From: Chromera velia
Taxonomy: Eukaryota; Sar; Chromeraceae
Assembly (NCBI GenBank): GCA_018398765.1
Contig: JAHBMJ010001201.1
Location: 1 to 34,097, forward strand
Direction of reading: 5' to 3'
DNA length: 34,097 bases
The notes beneath the pieces are model-generated. The model ran no database searches. It saw only the letters and a program-made list of their open reading frames with translations, and was not told the origin of the DNA. A program made the translations under genes and the position numbers. Below are positions 6,741 to 34,097 of the stretch, one piece after another (within the stretch, counting starts at the first letter, position 1; every line of letters begins with the position of its first letter).

Positions 6741-6784
6741 CGTGATAGCAGGAGCCTCGTTACGACTAAATTTGCTCTGTTACG

Positions 6785-8197
6785 ATGGAAGGTTTCACCA
6801 GAGAATTTGAAGAGTTGAAAGCCCTGTACCAAGCTCAGGCTGCAGAGATTGCTGAGTTGAGAGCGATCCTTGGCCACTTGCATTCCACTTTTTCCAGTGC
6901 TTTTGCGAAAGCGATCAAACCAATCTACGATTATGCTGGAACAGTTGAGGAATTCGAAGATTGGATCCGGGTGTGCGAGAAGTACCGCGACTTCCATGGT
7001 ATAACCGATGCGCAGCTGCTCAGTGCAGCCGACAGCCACCTCAAAGGCGATGCAGTCAAGGCTGTGAAGCTCGCAAAAAAGAATGGGCACATGCCTGCAA
7101 CGTGGTTGGAACTCCAGACTGTCCTGCTGACATATTTTCAGGACAGACGGACTCGTGATGATCACCGAGATGAACTGGACAGGATAAAGTGTGTGGGAGT
7201 GTCGGGCACAGATCTCAAAACATACATGAGCAACTTCATCTCTAAGATGCTCTTCATCCCTGATATGAGCATGAGTGACAAAGTATATCAGTACGAGAAG
7301 GGTCTTCCCAAAGATGTCTAGAAGGAGGTAAAGAGAAAGAAACCCGCAAACTTCGAGGCAGCAGTAGGAGCAGCATTTGAAGCACTCTCGATCGTTTCTC
7401 ACCGATCTGTTTTGTTTGCTGCAGCAGCAACCCATCTCAGAACACTTTTCTCAATAGAAGCACCCCCTGTAACCGGTGGTGGAGGTCATATGTCATATGA
7501 TCCCACTAGTCCAGCACCCATGGATATCAGTGCACTGGGGCAGACAAACAGAAGCAGAGAACACAATATCCGAAAGCTGCCACCCCTGACTAACAAAGAA
7601 AAAGAGATCCTCAGGGAGTTCTACGGGTGTTTCCTCTGCAGGACATTGCACGCAGGTCATGGTGCAAAAGACTGTTCTGACCGCGATATCATCATCATTC
7701 AGAAGCCGAAAGAGAGGACAGATGGCAGAGGGCCGAAACACCTGTCGTTTGGTCATGAGTCCGAGAAGACCAGCGACATCTACAGGCCAGAGGGGTAGCC
7801 AAAGATGGTCTATGCTACAGGAGAGAGGTCTGATGACGAGTGGGTGCACCGCCCCTCAGGCATGTATCACATCGAAGGGTGTGAGTGCAGTGAGGGACAG
7901 GACGGAGACGGCGAAGAGGAAGATGAGTTTGCCAATTCCTCTAACCGCCGTCAAACAGAAAGACCGATCCAGACAGGAGTCAAAAGCCATATGCCAGGCC
8001 CCAGAAGAGTAGAGAGGGAGAAGGAATTGACAGAGCAGCAGATCGTAGAAATCGAAAGCACATTCGCTGCCAGACAGGCAGAGAAGGAGGAGGAGATGGA
8101 GAGTAAGAAAGAGGAGACAGAGGAGACAACCTGTGGTGCCCTCCTGCATAAGCTGCGGGAAGTGGAAGCAGACCCCACCCTAGGTCAATCTCGTTAG
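6785..8197 (+). pseudogene. Retrotransposon gag with two in-frame TAG codons
   Basis: One continuous frame of 471 codons from ATG 6785 to TAG 8195-8197 is interrupted by TAG at codon 179 (7319-7321) and TAG at codon 338 (7796-7798); the frame is otherwise intact. The N-terminus is a short helix (EELKALYQAQAAEIAELRAI). It is followed by a capsid-like alpha-helical region with FEDWIRVCEKY and TWLELQTVLLTYFQD, the layout of the Retrotrans_gag family. Residues 282-297 form a zinc knuckle of the spacing C-x2-C-x6-H-x4-C (CFLCRTLHAGHGAKDC), longer than the classic CCHC. The C-terminal third is acidic and Lys/Glu-rich. Either the element is dead, or the TAG codons are read through; the old LTRs favour decay. 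Confidence 0.8.
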
Positions 8198-14483: not shown

Positions 14484-14868
14484 TGCCGCTCAACAAAAGT
14501 CCAAAAACCAATTCCACCAATGCTATGCAATCACGTGACAAAAGAGACAACCACGTAGAATCTGCCAGCTGAGGGCTGTCCCTTTCCTCTGCTTCTCACG
14601 ATCCGTTGCTCAAGCACAAGTAGGATACGCCACCGCTTTCACAGTCTTATTAAATTAGCCCCAACCATCGTCTGTGCCAAAATAAGACGTTCCCGTCATT
14701 CATCAAGGAAAAGCTTTTGGGGCTGCACGTACTCAATCATCAGTTCGGAATCTAGACTTAATTTGCGCCACTGCCGCTACAAAGCAGCCCAGCGAAGGAG
14801 CCAACGTCGAAGATCTTTGAAGTGATCATGCAACCATGATCGATCAGTCTGCATATGATCTGCATATG
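14484..14868. other. Upstream region of the mucin gene up to the inverted element
   Basis: No coding frame supported. It should contain the 5' UTR and promoter of the minus-strand mucin gene. The last 50 bases contain repeated CATG and TCTGCATATG words next to the element border. Confidence 0.4.
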
Positions 14869-17800
14869 TGCCGTGGCCCCCGGCCATGGTATCTGTTAAG
14901 GCCCTTAGCCGCACCTATGGAAAAAAAAAAGTCGAATTACCAATAAATCGGGTTACATTTGCCTTTCGGGACCCGCGCTTTCCGGCAACTCTACAGCGCG
15001 TGCATGGCGAACATGCGTCTGACCTTGATGTATCGGTACATATATATGCAAAAACACACATGGAGGGGAATTGTACGTAGATTCGATCATCTGTGTAGTT
15101 TTCAAGGAAGGCGATAAAGCATACCGTCTAAGTGAAGCTGTTCTGAATTGCTCCGTTGTTTGACTATGCTACTAAACTTAGTGGTAAGTTAAGACATGCC
15201 GCCTTACAGAGTCAGGAGTAAGCCGCACCACAACTGAGTACGCTTGACAAAGAGGAAAAACGGATAATTTGATCTGCAGGAACCTCTTTTTGCCCATCTT
15301 CTTTCTCTCTACTTGGCCCTTCTTATCGTTCTTTAGCACCTGGTTTCTCGACTTCCTTTTACCTCCACTTGAGGATTTGGGACACAAAATACTGTCTATA
15401 TATAGTGTGTGTCACTGTGGATGCTGTAGTATTCGCTTTGAAATCTTGTGGAAAGGCTCACCACATATGGGTCCAGCGCTTAGTGAGTTCAAGAGGGAGA
15501 GATGTGAACAGAAGCCGTTTGGGCCTGTGGATAAAGCTAGGTAAGCAAGTGTGTAAACAGAAGCCGTTTGGGCGTGTGGGTAAATGTTTAGGCGTGCAGA
15601 TACATGGAGAAAAAGGGACATGGAAAAGAAGTGTGTGCAGTAACAGAATCCGCTTAGGCCTGCAGGTGGATGAATGAAGAGAGACGGAGAGAGCGAGTAT
15701 GTTTATGAGTATGTATGAGTTTGTGAACAGAAGCTGTTTGAACGTGACGGAGAGAGCGAGCGTGTTTCTGAGTATGTATGAGTCTGTGAACAGAAGCCGT
15801 TTGGGCGTGCGGGCGAGACAAGGAGAACAAGTGTGTAAACAGAAGCCGCTTAAGCCCATGGATGAATGAAGAGAGATCAATTGTGTGTCATTAAAGAAAA
15901 GCCGCTTGGGCCGCTGGTTAGGCCTGTGGATGAATGAAGAGAGATCAAGTGTATGAACAGAAACATACAGAAGCCGCTTGGGCCTATGGATGAGTGAAGA
16001 GAGACAAGGAGAACGAGTGTGTGAACAGAAGCCGTTTGGGTGTGTGGGTGAATGAAGGATAATGAAGGGAGACAAAGAGATACAAGGAGAGCGAGTGTAT
16101 GAACAGAAGCCGCTTGGGCGTGTAGGTGAATGAAGGGAGACAAGGAGATACAAGGAGAGTGTGTGAACAGAAGCCGCTTGGACATGTGGGTGAATGAAGG
16201 GAGATAAGGAGATACAAGGAGAACGAGTGTATGAACAGAAGCCGGTTGGGCGTGCGGGCGAAGAAAAAGAGACAAGGAGAACGAGTGTATGAACAGAAGC
16301 TAGGAACAGGAGTCGTTTGGGCCTGTGGACTAGCCCGTGGATGAATGAAGAGGGATCAATTGTGTGTCATTAAACAAAAGCCGCTCGGGCCTATGGCTAG
16401 GCCTGTGGATGAATGAAGAGATATCAAGTGCGTGAACAGAAGCCGCTTAGGCTTGCTGATAAATTAAGAGAGACAGGGAGAGTGGGTGTGTAAACAGAAG
16501 CTGTTTGGGCATGTGGGTGAATGAAAAGAGACAAAGAGATACAAGGAGAGCGAATGTGACACTGTGAACAGAAGCCGCTTGGGTCTCATGCAGTAATTTA
16601 ATAAAATCAATGAAGAATAATGAAGAGAGACATGGAGAGTGAGTGTGTAAACAGAAGCCGTTTGGGGCGTTACGACAGTGTGGGTGCATGAACACAGACA
16701 GGGAAAGCAAGTATCTGAACCGGTGTGAACAAGCTAGGCAAACAGGAGCCGGTTGGGCGTGTGGGTGAATGAAGAGGGACAAGGACTCGCACAAGCATGT
16801 CAGCAGAAGATATTTGCATGGACGTATGGGTACTTGAATGAATAGAGACAGCTTATCACTAAGAGAGAATGAGACTCAGTGTGAAAAGAACTTCAAGCCG
16901 CTAGGGCCTGTGGGTAAATAGAAATAAATGAAGAGAGACAGCGAGAGCAAGTGTGTGAATAAAAGCCGTTCGGGCATGTGGATGTGAGAGTGTTAATGGA
17001 AGCCGTTAACTTTGGGTATGTGGATGAGTGATCGAAGAGAAACAGGGAAAATGAAGGAGTAAGTGAGTAAGCAAGTGAGACAGTGAGTGAGTGAATTAGT
17101 GAGGAAAGCAAGAATGACTCAGTGAGTCAGTGACTAAGTGTGTTGGTGAGTGAGTAAGTGAGCACAATCAACTACAGCAACTAATATAACAAGCGCAGCA
17201 AGCGTACAGTTTGGGACTTGTCTAATGTTGTGTTCAAACATTTTATAGACTAGCTCATAGTCTCAGTCACAGCTAGATGATTTAAAAGAGTAAGTTGATA
17301 CTAGTATTAGTAATAGAAGGCGTATATAATGTTTAGCTACTACATATGCTACTATGCTACTTCTAGAATGGCGAAAATATAAATAAAAGTAAATGAAAGA
17401 AACATGTGTGTCTGTATGTAAAAGACTTACATATTGACTCCGTAAATAAAAAATAAAAATGTAAGTAGATTTAAGTGGGGAGCATTGTGATTTTTTTTTT
17501 TATAAGCAAAAATAAGTTGTTAAAGATTTATCAGTAATGTATTGCTACGGTTACAATTTCATTTTCTCTTTCATGTTTATTCACGTTAACACCATGTGTT
17601 AGCAAAGTCCTTGTACGTCATTAATTTTCTTATGAGCAAACGTATTTAATAGTAGAGCTCTTCTTATTTCTTCTTCTCAACGGTCTTGAAGCCCGTCCAG
17701 CCGTCTCCGGCCCTCTATGGCATTTACAGATACCGCGGCTACGTTTTTGTGTAGCCAACAACCGTGATTGAGGGTTTTGTCATGCACTATATATTAATAT

Positions 17801-17912
17801 GGGAAGGGGAACCTGTTGCATGCATGTACTACGATCATGGACACACCTCTCAGTGCTCTCACCCTATATCTCACCCCTGGGGGCCACGGCATGTCCCGTA
17901 GGGACATTGTAA
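14869..17912 (-). mobile_element. Unclassified ~3.04-kb element, copy 1 (inverted)
   Basis: Its left border TGCCGTGGCCCCC and its right inner end GGGGGCCACGGCATGTCCC are inverted copies of the same 13-bp word, so each copy carries short terminal inverted repeats. The inner end has in addition the palindrome GTCCCTACGGGAC and TTGTAA/TTACAA. The 10-bp word TCTGCATATG stands immediately outside both ends (14859-14868 and 17913-17922), a good candidate target duplication and a length like that of Mutator-type elements. The whole copy is matched in reverse complement by 17941-20977, with several percent divergence in the stretches I compared. It encodes no recognisable transposase; a non-autonomous element is the simplest reading. 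Confidence 0.78.
15480..17130. repeat. About 22 degenerate GAACAGAAGCCGCTTGGGC repeats in copy 1
   Basis: The core GAACAGAAGCCGYTTGGGC plus a GTGTGGGTGAATGAAG tail recurs every ~55-100 bp (for example near 15512, 15560, 15790, 15970, 16027, 16105, 16168, 16240, 16438, 16655, 16745, 16960). Spacers are purine-rich (GAGAGACAAGGAGA). The outer end changes to GTGA repeats (about 17060-17160). Long open frames across the array come from the absence of stops in the unit, not from a gene. Confidence 0.85.
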
Positions 17913-18729
17913 TCTGCATATGTCTGCATGCATGCATGAATTGTAATGTCCCTACGGGACATGCCGTGGCCCCCAGGGGTGAGATAGGGTGAGAGCACTG
18001 AGAGGTACATCCATGATTGTGGTACATGCATGCAACAGGTTCCCCTTCCCATATTAATATATGGTGCATGACAAAACCCTCAATCACGGTTGTTGGCTGC
18101 GCAAAGGCATAGCCGCGGTATCTGTAAATGCCGTAGAGGGCCGGAGACGGCTGGACGGGCTTCAAGACGGTTGAGAAAAAGAAATAAGAAGAGCTCTGCT
18201 ATTAGATACATTTGCTAATAAGAAAATTAATGACGTACAAGGACTTCGCTAACACGTGGTGTTAACGTGAATAAACATGAAAGAAAAAATGAAATTGTAA
18301 CCGCAGCAATACATTACTGATAAATCTTTAACAACTTATTTTTGCTTATTAAAAAAAAAATCACAGTGCTCCCCACTTAAATCTACTTACATTTTTATTT
18401 TTTATTTACGAAGTCAATATATAAGTCTTTTATATACAAACACACATGCTGTAATGTTTCTTTCATTTACTTTCATTTATATTTTGGCCATTCTAGTAGT
18501 AGCATAGTAGCATATGTAGTAGCCAAACATTATATACGCCTTCTATTATCAACTTGCTCTTTTAAATCATCTACCTGTGACTAAGACTGTGAGTTAGTCT
18601 ATAAAATGTTTGAACACAACGTTATACAAGTCCCAAACTATACGCTTGCTACGCTTGTTGTATTAGTTGTTGTGGTTGGTTGTGCTTATTTACTCACTCA
18701 CCAACACACTTAGTCACTGACTCACTGAG

Positions 18730-20360
18730 TTATTCTTGCTTTCCTCACTAATTCACTCACTCACTGTCTCACTTGCTCACTCACTTACTCCCTCATTTTC
18801 CCTGTCTCTCTTCGATCACTCACCCATATGCCCACAGTTAACGGCTTTCATTAACACTCTCACATCCACACACCCGAACGGCTTTTGTTCACACACTTGC
18901 TCTCTCTGTTTCTCTTCGTTTATTTTTATTTCAGGCCCTAGCGGCTTAAAGTTTTGTTTACACACTGAGTCTCATTCTCCCTTAGTAACAGGCTGTCTCT
19001 ATTCATTCAGGCACCCACACGCCCATATAAATATCTTCTGCTGACATGCTGGTGTGAGTCCTTGTCCCTCTTCATTCACCCATACACCCAACCGGCTCTT
19101 CTTTACCTAGCTTGTTCACACCGGTTCACACACTTACTTTCCCTGTCTATGATGATTTAGGTTTTTGTTATGCATGCCGCATCCCCATATATGAGGGGCG
19201 GACTAGGGGGCGGATCTAGCCTAGTCTGTTAAAAGGTTCCGGTTCATCCCATCTGTTCTGAATTCAGGAACACTGCTCATTGATCACTTTTACTGTGATT
19301 TATTTCTTAAGCGGCCTTGTCTGTGTTTATGCACCTACACCGTCATGATGTCCTAAACGGCTTCTGTTTACATATTTGCTCTCCATGTCTCTCTTTATTA
19401 TTCTTCATTGATTCACTGCATGAGGCCTAAGCGGCTTCTGTTCACACATTCGCTCTCCTTGTATCTCTTTGTCTCTCTTCATTTACCCACACGTTCAAAC
19501 GGCTTCTGTTCACATACTTACTCTCCCTGTCTTTCTTAATTCATCAGCAGGCCTAAGTGGCTTCTGTTTACGCACTTGATATCTGTTCATTCATCCATAG
19601 GCCTAGCGAAGCCTAACCATAGGCCCGAGCGGCTTTTATTCAATGACACACAATTGATCCCTCTTCATTCATCCACGGGCCCAAACGGCTCCTGTTCCTA
19701 GCTTCTGTTCACATACTCATTCTCTTTGTCTCTCTTTCTTCGCCCGCATACCCAACCGGCTTCTATTCACACACTCCCTTCATTCACCCACACGCCCAAG
19801 CAGCTTCTGTTCACACACTCGCTCTCTTTGTATCTCCTTGTCCCCCTTCATTCACTCACACGCCCAAGCGGCTTCTGTTCATACACTCGTTCTCCCTGTC
19901 TCCCTTCACTCATCCATAGGCCCAAGCGGCTTCTGTATGTTTCTGTTTACATACTTGATCTCTTTTCATTCATCCACAGGCCTAATCAGCGGCCCAAGCG
20001 GCTTTTCTTCAATGATACACAATTGATCTCTCTTCATTTATCTATGGGCCTAAGCAGCTTCTGTTGTGTGACTCGTTCTCCTTATCTCACCCGCACGCCC
20101 AAACGGCTTCTATTTACAAACTTATACATACTCATAAACACGCTCATTTTCTCCGTCTCTCTTCATTCATCCAGTTGCAGGCCTAAGCGGATTCTGTTAC
20201 TGCACATACTTCCTTTCCATGCTTCTCTTTCTCCATGCACCTGCACGCCCAAACATTTACTCACACGCCCAAACGGCTTCTGTTCATACACTTGCTTACC
20301 TAGCTTTATCTACAGGCCTAAACAGCTTTTGTTCACATCTCTCCCTCTTGAACTCACCAA
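18730..20360. repeat. Repeat array in copy 2 (GCCCAAGCGGCTTCTGTTC units)
   Basis: This is the reverse-complement form of the copy 1 array, with cores such as GGCCCAAGCGGCTTCTGT near 19918, 19860 and 19435 and C/T-rich spacers. Unit order broadly mirrors copy 1. Confidence 0.85.
19149..19322. mobile_element. ~174-bp insertion in copy 2, absent from copy 1
   Basis: In copy 1 the sequence runs CCCTGTCTGTGTTCATGCACC (reverse complement). In copy 2 it is split after CCCTGTCT (19141-19148) and resumes after CCTTGTCT (19315-19322), giving an 8-bp duplication with one mismatch around ~166 bp of unique DNA. The insert contains TAGCCTAGTCTG and GGTTCATCCC, weakly like pol III box A and box B but too close together. 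Its class is unknown. Confidence 0.5.
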
Positions 20361-20977
20361 GCGCTAGACCCATATACGGTAAGCCTCTCTACAATATTTC
20401 AAAGCGAATACTACAGCGACACACACTATATATAGACAGTATTTTGCATCCCAAATCCGTAAGTGGGGGTAGAAGGAAGTCGAGAAACCAGGTGCTGATC
20501 GAAGAACGGCAAGAGGGGCCAAGTAGAGAGAAAGAAGACGGGCAAAAAGAGGTTCCTGCAGATTAAATTAACCGTTTTTCCTCTTTGTTAAGCGCACTCA
20601 GTCGTAGTGTGGCTTACTTCTGACTCTGTAAAGCAGCATGTCTTAACTTGCCAGTGAGCTTAGTAGTATAGTCAAACAACGGAGCAATTCAGAACAGCTT
20701 CACTTAGATGGTGTGCTTTATCACCTTCCTTGAAAACTATACAGATGATCGAATCTACGTACAATTCGCCTCCATGTGTGTTTTTGCATATGTATATATG
20801 TACCGATACATCAAGGTTAGATAAAAGGTGCATGTTCGCCATGCACGCGCTGTAGAGTTGCCGGAAAGCGCGGGTCCCGAAAGGTAAATGTAACCCGATT
20901 TATTGGTAATTCGACTTTTTTTTTTCCATAGGTGCGGCTGAGGGCCTTAACAGATACCATGGCCGGGGGCCACGGCA

Positions 20978-21430: not shown

Positions 21431-23595
21431 ATGTCAGGCTCAATGCAGTGCACAGTCTCTTTTTGTGTGGCCCTCGTGCTGCTTCTCCAGTTGTTTCATT
21501 GTCCAGAGGGAAGCGCAACCGTCACTCTCACTGGGCGAGGGTTGCGACGGAGCGGAAAACCGAATAGCGGCTGTTCAATGGGAAGATTTGGGGTCGTGGG
21601 CGCAAATCGCTTCCAAGGTGAGATGACATATAAGTGGGGCAGCGTTGGTGTTTGAGACGGCAGCGTTGTCTAGATGTTGTCCGGAAGTCGCCTCCTCTGT
21701 TTCCCTCGTCTCTCTTTGCAGGTGTGTGGACTCCATGTGCTGGGGACAGGAAGGAAGAACAGGAAGATGAAGGATGGGAGTGGTTGTTGAAGAGTTTGAG
21801 AGAAAAAATGGGAGAGTTGGTCAGAAGGGCAGTGTCAGACAGTGGGGGTTCGAGAGGGGAAGGAGAGAAGGGGGGCAAACAGGCACCAAGACCGAGCGAG
21901 GAAAGTCGCCAACCCAAAATGGAGACGCCACCGAGTCAGGATCAAACATCTCAAGTTGATCCTGGCCGGAGAGGAAGAAGACTGGCGCCAGAGCAGCAGA
22001 ATCTCTTGAAGAAAGCGGAAATTGAACTTAAGAAAAAGTTTACGGCAGAGGAGCAAATACGAAAAAATCATATGCGGAACCAGAACTTGACTTCGATGAA
22101 GATTATGGTTGATATTTTGTCTACTGTCTCTGGGCTCATTCCCCTTTTGTTTCTGCTGGCGAACTTTTCTGGCCGGTTGGTAGCAGCATTGAAGTCTTTG
22201 CTGGTCAAAAAGAAAGACCGAGTTCTGACGTTTGATGACGTGATTGGTCTTGAGGAGGCAAAAGAGGAATTGAAGGAAGTGGCCGATTTCCTGCAACACC
22301 CCAAACAATACAGAGATCTCGGGGTGCGTATACCGGCAGGGGTGATCCTTGAAGGACCACCGGGGTCGGGCAAGACTCTGCTTGCAAAAGCCCTGGCGGC
22401 AGAGGCCAAGGCATCGTTCATTGCCACGTCGGGCTCGTCCTTCGGGGGGGTTCTCATGGGTCTTGCAGCGATGAGGATTCGATCTTTGTTCCAACGCGCA
22501 CGTGCATGTGCCCCGTGCATTGTGTTTATTGATGAATTTGACTCTCTCGCGAAAAAGCGTTTCAGCGAGAGTGTCAACAAAGGCGCAGAGATGGACAACG
22601 ACCTCACTGTCAACCAACTGTTGACGGAGTTGGACGGCTTCGTCTCCCGGAAGACGAACAAACCCGTTATTTTGATAGCTGCCACCAACAGAGCAGAGTC
22701 CCTCGACCCCGCCGTTATGCGGCCCGGCAGATTTGATCGGAAGATCTTTGTAGGGTATCCGGATGTCAAGGCGCGTGAGGGGATTTTGAGGCATTACATG
22801 AAGGGAAAGCCTACGGGGGAGGATGTGGAGGATCACTTGAGTAAGGTTGCCAAGCGAACGATTGGGTGGAGTGGCGCGCATTTAGAGAATTTGATCAATG
22901 AGGCCGCGCTGTTTGCAGGGAGAAGAAACGCCTCAGAGGTAGGGGCGATGGATTTAGAGGCTGCGTTTGAGCGGCACATGCTGGGGCCTCGCAAGAAGGG
23001 GGACACTTGGAAGTCGAAAGATGCGGAGAGAGTGCTTCGAGTGACTGCAATTCACGAAGCAGGGCACGCACTCGTCTCTACTCTCCATCCTGATGGAGCA
23101 GAGGTGCAGAGCGTGACTATAGTCCCGAGGACTGGGGCTGCGGGTGTGGGGGGGTTTACGAGTTTCATTCCGTCGTCGGACGATTTGCAGTCGTTGCGGA
23201 GATTGGAGGGACAGTTGGCAATGGCGATGGGGGGGAGGGCGGCAGAAGAGGTTGCATTGGGAGAACGGAATGTGACAACAGGGGCGACAGGCGATATTGC
23301 CCATGCGACTCAGTTAGCTCGGTTGATGGTGGAAGAGTTTGGTTTTGCGCCTGAGGTTGGTCTTGTGAAGGTCGGGGAGGGAGGTTTCTTTCGTCGGTCT
23401 CCGGGAGATCAGGAGAAATCAGATTCAGCAGTGCGGAGGCTGACTCAACAAGCATTTGATACAGCGAAGGGAATTCTAGAAAAGAACAGGAATCTTCTCT
23501 TCCGAATAGCCGATTTGCTGGCTGAAAAAGAGACCATTTCTGGAGATGAACTGAGAAAAACGATCGAAAAACACACAAAAGGCGACACTTTCTAA
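21431..23595 (+). CDS. ftsH: FtsH/Yme1-type membrane AAA+ zinc metalloprotease
   Basis: Exons 21431-21617 and 21722-23595 (donor CAAG|GTGAGA, acceptor TTTGCAG|GTGTG, phase 1) give 686 residues. Residues about 5-22 form a signal-peptide-like hydrophobic stretch, followed by a basic, hydroxylated region, which fits a bipartite presequence to a secondary plastid; ATG 21443 is an alternative start. A single membrane segment spans about 196-217 (SGLIPLLFLLANFSGRLVAA). Then come the AAA module with Walker A GPPGSGKT (274-281), Walker B CIVFIDEFD (328-336), the second region of homology AATNRAESLDPAVMRPGRFD, and the M41 protease domain with HEAGH (507-511) and a third zinc ligand probably Asp587 in TTGATGDIAHAT. 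These residues indicate an active ATP-dependent protease that degrades membrane proteins. One membrane segment instead of two recalls the i-AAA (Yme1) layout. The usual pore-loop aromatic is missing (VLMGLA where FVGVG is usual). Thylakoid or other organelle membrane is inferred. Confidence 0.9.
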
Positions 23596-33379: not shown

Positions 33380-34097
33380 TTGTAATATCCCTACGGGACA
33401 TGCCGTGGCCCCCAGGGGTGAAATAGGGTGAGAGCACTGAGAGGTGCGTCTATGATCGTGGTACATGCATGCAACAGGTTCCCCTTCCCATATGATGATT
33501 AAGGGTTCCCATATTAATATATGGTGCATGACAAAACCCTCAATCACGGTTGTTGGCTGTGCAAAGGCGTAGCCGCGGTATCTGTAAATGCTGTAGAGGG
33601 CCGGAGACGGCTGAACGGGCTTCAAGATGGTTGAGAAGAAGAAATAAGAAGAGCTCTACTATTAGATACGTTTGCTAATAAGAAAATTAATAACATACAA
33701 GGACTTCGCTAACACATGGTGTTAACGTGAATAAACATGAAAGAAAAAATGAAATTGTAACCGCAGCAATACATTACTGATAAATCTTTAACAACTTATT
33801 TTTGCTTATTAAAAAAAAAATCACAGTGCTCCCCACTTAAATCTACTTACATTTTTATTTTTTATTTACGAAGTCAATATATAAGTCTTTTATATACAAA
33901 CACACATGCTGTAATGTTTCTTTCATTTACTTTCATTTATATTTTGGCCATTCTAGTAGTAGCATAGTAGCATATGTAGTAGCCAAACATTATATACGCC
34001 TTCTATTATCAACTTGCTCTTTTAAATCATCTACCTGTGACTAAGACTGTGAGTTAGTCTATAAAATGTTTGAACACAACGTTATACAAGTCTAAAA
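33380..34097 (+). mobile_element. Unclassified ~3-kb element, copy 3 (truncated by window end)
   Basis: It starts TTGTAATATCCCTACGGGAC, then ATGCCGTGGCCCCC, and follows copy 2 (17941 onward) to the window end. It has a 19-bp extra piece at about 33493-33511 (a partial duplication of TTCCCATAT). About 33380-33720 carries about 17 differences from copy 2, all transitions. From about 33721 to 34091 I see no difference at all. It lies 236 bp upstream of the coiled-coil gene start. Confidence 0.85.

Follow-up and report, generated by a model that had tools for sequence, protein, structure and literature searches.

A facing pair of probable Helitron2-like elements in a 6.1-kb imperfect palindrome of Chromera velia

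Introduction

What kind of DNA makes up the two arms of a 6.1-kb imperfect palindrome in Chromera velia, and how did the arms come to face one another? The palindrome lies in the window analysed here, a stretch of 34,097 nt that is contig C1200 of a 177.8-Mb assembly in 4040 contigs; all coordinates are those of the window, C-numbers denote contigs of the assembly, L-numbers denote loci fetched from it, and the left and right ends of an element are its 5' and 3' ends. A preliminary description, made from the letters of the window, had seen in the palindrome two facing copies of a mobile element that belonged to no family it could name. Here we assign this unnamed palindrome to a named class of mobile DNA: with a probability of roughly 0.85, both arms are copies of one non-autonomous, HINE-like rolling-circle family of the Helitron2 type. 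We regard it as a new family inside a known class, with high confidence in the class and moderate confidence in the enzyme. Our literature search found no description of a Helitron in Chromera velia, and the word 'helitron' was not found in the accessible text of the genome paper (PMC4501334); the transposable element tables of that paper lay outside the search, and absence from print is not claimed.

Both arms are members of a dispersed family whose ends are fixed

The two arms of about 3 kb, 28 bp apart, match in reverse complement at 91.8% identity (2595 of 2828 aligned columns), with ungapped stretches between them ranging from 88 to 99%. They are diverged, as the preliminary description had said, and its reading of the outer ends as TGCCGTGGCCCCC, of the inner ends as TTGTAA and of an internal repeat array also holds: both copies contain a central array of diverged repeats around the core AACAGAAGCCGYTTGGGC, the units of which start 49-149 bp apart in copy 1 (periods of 63-68 bp in Tandem Repeats Finder).

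These ends recur throughout the assembly. With up to three mismatches allowed, 126 sites matched the 25-base left end and 101 matched the right end; the reversed-pattern control gave 0 in each case. The pairing of ends took in 100 listed left ends of the 126 and 100 listed right ends of the 101, and all statements below about listed ends refer to these. For seventy of the listed left ends there is a partner among the listed right ends on the same contig and strand, and in a few cases one right end serves more than one left end; 36 of the 70 pairs span 2.8-3.4 kb, four span 1.58 kb, one spans 135 bp, 20 fall between 3.8 and 12 kb, and the four beyond 12 kb are probably mispaired. Copies that are truncated at the 5' side and retain the right end also occur. 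The preliminary description had staked its idea of a mobile element on further copies with the same ends, and many exist. The palindrome is not an assembly mirror image, as that description had also held; its arms are members of different subfamilies of a dispersed family.

Some left ends are themselves repeated. At L025 the left-end region forms a tandem repeat of 3.0 copies of a 370-bp unit, and contigs C613, C649, C2759, C897 and C1152 have gaps at a similar place. In three of 39 distinct left flanks (L013, L021 and L042) an exact repeat of the first 12-15 nt of the element stands just upstream of its start, and 5 nt are repeated in L041 and, by eye, in L081. Repeated element starts of this kind possibly reflect 5' slippage during replication.

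Terminal structure

As published, Helitron2 elements have hairpins at both ends, a 5' T and two asymmetric terminal inverted repeats (ATIRs), one starting 0-2 bp from the 5' end and the other lying about 20-30 bp short of the 3' end (PMC3627910), HINEs have central repeats and a 3' palindrome (PMC4067079), and the FoHeli relatives in Fusarium include one group beginning TGCCT (PMC5148889). The present family begins with TGCCGTGGCCCCC, and its 5' ATIR, 13 bp long against the 8-15 bp of Helitron2, lies 0 bp from the 5' end. This ATIR is predicted to take part in a 5' hairpin with a 9-bp stem and an energy of -7.2 kcal/mol, a level reached by 14 of 1000 shuffles. At the other terminus the 3' ATIR, GGGGGCCACGGCA, stands 21-22 bp from the end and directly upstream of a potential hairpin with a perfect 7-bp stem, after which the tail TTRYAA closes the element and is followed in most copies by T. 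That T, a position outside the search pattern, is present in 39 of the 42 distinct right flanks that were read. Immediately before the left end no base is constant (A 17, G 10, T 9 and C 3 in 39 left flanks). Insertion at T and the lack of a target site duplication (TSD) in most members, both expected of Helitron2, are seen in these right flanks and in the eight empty relatives of one insertion described below. Central repeats, absence of coding capacity, inverted repeats near both ends and a 3' palindrome, the features of HINEs, are likewise all present.

The family that could not be named carries, in its ATIRs, its 5' and 3' hairpins and its central repeats, the published Helitron2/HINE pattern (PMC3627910, PMC4067079, PMC5148889). 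Helitron1 was considered and rejected, as its definition requires 5'-TC and CTRR-3' (PMC3627910, PMC5148889) and the family ends in TG... and ...RYAA.

Coding content and the search for an autonomous partner

As the preliminary description had noted, no transposase is visible. Six element open reading frames (ORFs) of 134-301 aa gave zero Pfam matches at E 0.01, the ORF list of the window contains no transposase-like frame within the element, and Rfam returned nothing at the gathering threshold. Elsewhere in the assembly, the Rep domain (PF14214) exceeds its cut-off at 13 places, and the PIF1 helicase has 14 matches on 13 contigs, 10 of which are also Rep contigs; no contig with a PIF1 match is among those of the listed family ends.

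Several candidates for an autonomous or related element were tried and rejected. C442 (L081), at 7.0 kb the only one of the 20 pairs of 3.8-12 kb to be fetched whole, holds about 4.1 kb of unrelated, partly low-complexity DNA between family segments; its longest frame is 225 aa, and four of its ORFs had no Pfam match. C3673 (L082) encodes a helicase C-terminus (Pfam matches below cut-off) with a PIF1 match just upstream, and the 3.5 kb downstream of this Helitron gene contain no family terminus. Half of the right end occurs with a different interior at three sites (L091-L093), which share only the 19-mer GGGGGCCACGGCATGTCCC, lack the second half of the hairpin and are not elements. In all three this exact 19-mer lies inside long open frames, and no other match was seen among the fetched loci; its presence in three places by chance seems unlikely.

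Exact-pattern searches, one for each question, found no left end with the same hairpin and another interior, and no directly joined ends that would mark a circle junction; on C2080 one right end is followed 24 bp on by a 5' ATIR. A search for a 13-14-mer of the left end outside the full left end counted 224 sites (100 listed), a set that includes right ends of the family itself. For TGCCGTGGCCCCCG with any base but G after it, 374 sites were counted (100 listed; reversed control 0), of which at least two (C27 and C442) belong to the present family. Another repeat bears the same end motif at L044:1552 (+) and L031:1628 (-), and with one or two mismatches at L002:931 and 1351 (-) and at L032:966 and 1421 (+); in L044 the motif adjoins a TCGA repeat and resembles a 5' terminus, and in L031, L002 and L032 it lies inside repeated units of about 400 bp. 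On C34, a PIF1 helicase match (19400-19897) is accompanied by two such sites with a base other than G (32220 and 33698, minus strand), 12-14 kb upstream on the same strand, and from this arrangement C34 is a possible candidate for an autonomous relative or partner. In this context, the family itself is a set of markers with which its enzyme can be sought.

One insertion without target duplication

The copy at L012 sits in a dispersed repeat, eight unoccupied relatives of which (L083-L090) were read. All eight have TAT-TA across the site, and the filled site reads TAT[TGCCG...TTACA]TA. Because the empty sequence is uninterrupted in eight of eight relatives, nothing was duplicated: the L012 element inserted at TT with zero bases duplicated, and the same relatives confirm the left boundary of the element for this insertion. 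The joined flanks of nine sites were searched in this way, and only those of L012 gave matches clearly spanning the junction. In a separate search, the joined flanks of C228 match flanking repeats across the junction at 81%; as the junction lies in AT-rich sequence that varies and is broken by a gap of 8 nt, C228 was ruled out as a base-precise empty site.

The preliminary description had proposed a 10-bp target duplication for copy 1. The sequence in question, TCTGCATATG, stands twice to the left of the copy (14848-14857 and 14859-14868) and once to its right (17913-17922), where a partial unit, TCTGCATGC, follows. The apparent TSD is best explained by a tandem TCTGCATATG repeat that already stood there, and both copies of the palindrome stand in tandem TCTGCATATG and TGCATG repeats. 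Most other flank pairs show no TSD: 18 of 24 share 3 nt or fewer, and five share 6 nt or more.

Alternative mobilisation systems

Several of our observations weigh against a Helitron2-type family. The energy of the 3' hairpin is unexceptional, 122 of 1000 shuffles of the 35-nt end being equally low. Base-precise empty sites are at hand for one insertion only, and the L012 tail, TTACA, lacks one A of the usual form. Five of 24 flank pairs match by at least 6 nt, in excess of the 1.3% of mismatched pairs that do so (mean match 3.3 versus 2.3 nt), and some copies may have a variable TSD. Of these five pairs, two belong to copies 1 and 2, which lie in repeats, and one belongs to L012; since L012 is among the five and its empty relatives nonetheless show no duplication, such a flank match can pre-exist. 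Lastly, no autonomous element with the family ends was found, and the contigs of the listed ends include not one of the 13 with Rep.

The most durable of the alternatives, which we still consider unlikely, is that another single-strand or site-specific system moves the family, whether a tyrosine recombinase or another HUH transposase, such as a Replitron or an IS200/605-like one. That no RepHel gene with the family ends was found would suit such a system, and IS200/605 elements also bear terminal hairpins (PMC3627910). Against it, the position and size of the asymmetric inverted repeat and of the 5' and 3' hairpins fit Helitron2, and Rep and PIF1-type helicase genes are present in the assembly.

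A Mutator-like element (MULE), at which the preliminary description had hinted, would be a non-autonomous element mobilised by a DDE transposase with target duplications of 8-11 bp, a length that is constant in MULEs. We consider this very improbable. The apparent direct repeat of 10-11 bp around copy 1, the excess of flank matches and the inverted motifs at both ends all point towards it, but the direct repeat is tandem, the eight empty relatives of L012 show no duplication, three quarters of the flank pairs (18 of 24) share at most 3 nt, and the inverted repeat is asymmetric and only 13 bp long. In addition, at E 0.001 a six-frame, intron-blind search of the assembly met no match to the MULE domain (PF10551).

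Origin of the facing pair

If a Helitron2-type family built both arms, the question remains whether they arrived together. Over the 3' 1.1 kb, copies 1 and 2 share 93.0% identity with each other; copy 1 shares more with L060 (96.0%), and copy 2 more with L018 and L004 (94.7%). Among 43 copies compared over this region, the identity of copies 1 and 2 is exceeded by 150 of 903 pairs. A tree was built from 23 of the 43 copies, leaving out 20 rows with truncated or variant 3' regions; in it copies 1 and 2 fall into separate supported clades (96/93 and 100/99), and their union as one clade is rejected by the approximately unbiased (AU) test (p = 5.23e-12).

A further distinction is a 163-bp segment (19152-19314) that the preliminary description had called copy 2's own insertion. 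It is indeed absent from copy 1, but it is not private to copy 2, since it occurs at full length, with 80-87% identity, in ten other fetched loci (L002-L010 and L071) and partly in L016/L040, L073 and L078; its full-length carriers are L002-L008 of the copy 2 clade, plus L009, L010, and L071 outside the tree. The different clades, the closer relatives elsewhere and the shared segment together lead us to conclude, by sequence comparison, that copies 1 and 2 are two separate insertions and not an inverted duplication. A local inverted duplication, as a segmental event or an assembly artefact, draws some support from the adjacency of the arms and from how seldom chance would give the arrangement (one pair of facing right ends within 100 bp among the 100 listed, against 0.006 expected if they were uniform), yet the closer outside relatives, the AU test and the segment that copy 2 has in common with other copies leave it almost no chance.

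The general pathway for a Helitron2-type family can be outlined. A RepHel protein supplied in trans would nick the element, rolling-circle replication would produce a single-stranded copy, base pairing between the two ATIRs would define where replication ends, as has been proposed for Helitron2 (PMC3627910), and the single strand would be joined into host DNA beside a T. Two copies would have arrived separately, in opposite orientation, in the same TGCATG-rich, self-complementary stretch, leaving the 6.1-kb imperfect palindrome, for which no special function need be invoked.

A TGCATG-rich target context

The most interesting trait of the family is its apparent preference for TGCATG-rich landing sites. 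Within 100 bp of insertions TGCATG occurs 8.77 times per kb, about ten times the 0.88 per kb found beyond 600 bp, in a comparison whose far windows include genes, such that a general intergenic bias is not separable from true target choice. The density peaks in the first 15 bp on the right side (25.4 per kb). The motif is present in 13 of 39 flanks on the left and in 19 of 39 on the right, compared with means of 2.2 and 2.8 and maxima of 7 and 9 for random farther-out windows in 2000 draws; more than half of single flanks lack it. Since TGCATG is nearly its own complement, one patch can receive copies in both orientations, and a self-complementary target may explain the facing pair.

In apicomplexan relatives, TGCATG(CA) motifs are transcription-factor (ApiAP2) motifs. 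We tentatively raise the idea, doubtful as it is, that this Helitron2-type family, and perhaps also the several hundred sites sharing the TGCCGTGGCCCCCG end, integrates in a sequence-guided manner into TGCATG(CA) clusters, thereby seeding promoters with mobile copies, and that a target nearly identical to its own reverse complement favours facing pairs and large palindromes. With this strong TGCATG context and with empty relatives that are precise to the base, it becomes possible to test directly where a rolling-circle transposon prefers to integrate.

Other features of the window

The features of the palindrome and a third, partial copy of the family are collected in Table 1. Beyond copy 2, an FtsH-type open frame (AAA and Peptidase_M41; 21634-23595, plus strand) starts about 0.65 kb away, and the element pair may lie near its promoter, the gene start being putative. 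A weak Retrotrans_gag match at 6770-7321 (plus strand; E 0.00013) falls short of the curated cut-off, and the open frame after it has a stretch that looks zinc-knuckle-like by eye; this region is possibly a remnant of a long terminal repeat (LTR) retrotransposon.

Table 1. Coordinates of the palindrome, its parts and the partial third copy
Feature	Position	Strand	Basis or remark
Tandem repeat TCTGCATATG(A), mimicking a target duplication with 17913-17922	14848..14868	+	window sequence
Copy 1, full-length non-autonomous Helitron2-like element (probable), 3044 bp	14869..17912	+	ends and alignment with copy 2
5' ATIR of copy 1	14869..14881	+	left-end search
Predicted 5' hairpin enclosing the ATIR, copy 1	14870..14890	+	stem of 9 bp including two G.T pairs; loop of 3 nt
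Central array of copy 1, diverged units around AACAGAAGCCGYTTGGGC	15506..16982	+	21 units (repeat family D3)
3' ATIR of copy 1, GGGGGCCACGGCA	17879..17891	+	right-end search
3' terminal hairpin of copy 1, ATGTCCC-GTA-GGGACAT	17891..17907	+	then TGTAA closing the element
Spacer TCTGCATATGTCTGCATGCATGCATGAA, 28 bp, 3' flank of both copies	17913..17940	.	window sequence
Copy 2, full-length element of a different subfamily, 3037 bp	17941..20977	-	3' ends of the two copies face each other
3' terminal hairpin of copy 2	17946..17962	-	sequence and right-end search
3' ATIR of copy 2	17963..17974	-	sequence and right-end search
Central array of copy 2	18859..20345	-	12 units (repeat family D5)
163-bp segment of copy 2, absent from copy 1	19152..19314	-	alignment; also in ten other fetched loci
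5' ATIR of copy 2	20965..20977	-	left-end search
Third copy, truncated at the contig end; 3' end with some 0.7 kb	33380..34097	-	88.5% identity over 723 columns

Comparison with known systems

Among described elements, the FoHeli Helitrons of Fusarium share ATIRs, hairpins and, in one group, a TGCCT start with the present family; they differ in their 3' ends (ATTTT or CTCCTGT), in that autonomous copies are known, and in that joined ends are reported there, whereas our exact-pattern search met none directly joined (PMC5148889). The Helitron2 group of Bao and Jurka (2013), from which the present family is set apart by the lack of an identified autonomous partner, includes members (CRe-1, 2 and 3) with TSDs of 7-19 bp, unlike our reading of the present family (PMC3627910). 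Within that group, Helitron-1N1_CRe is alike in its 5' ATIR 0-2 bp from the 5' end within a hairpin, in its 3' ATIR, which directly precedes the 3' hairpin at about 20-30 bp from the 3' end, and in its 5' T and insertion at T without TSD; it is 657 bp long, as against 3 kb for the present family with its large central array, TTRYAA tail and TGCATG-rich surroundings (PMC3627910). The HINE or DINE-1 elements, which are non-autonomous Helentrons, differ in sequence, and their 3' repeat lies 38-60 bp from the end in mites, in contrast to about 22 bp here, where moreover the 5' repeat starts at the first base; in their inverted repeats of 12-15 bp near both ends, their 3' palindrome, their central repeats, their lack of coding capacity and their insertion next to a T, they are nonetheless built like the two arms of the Chromera velia palindrome (PMC4067079).

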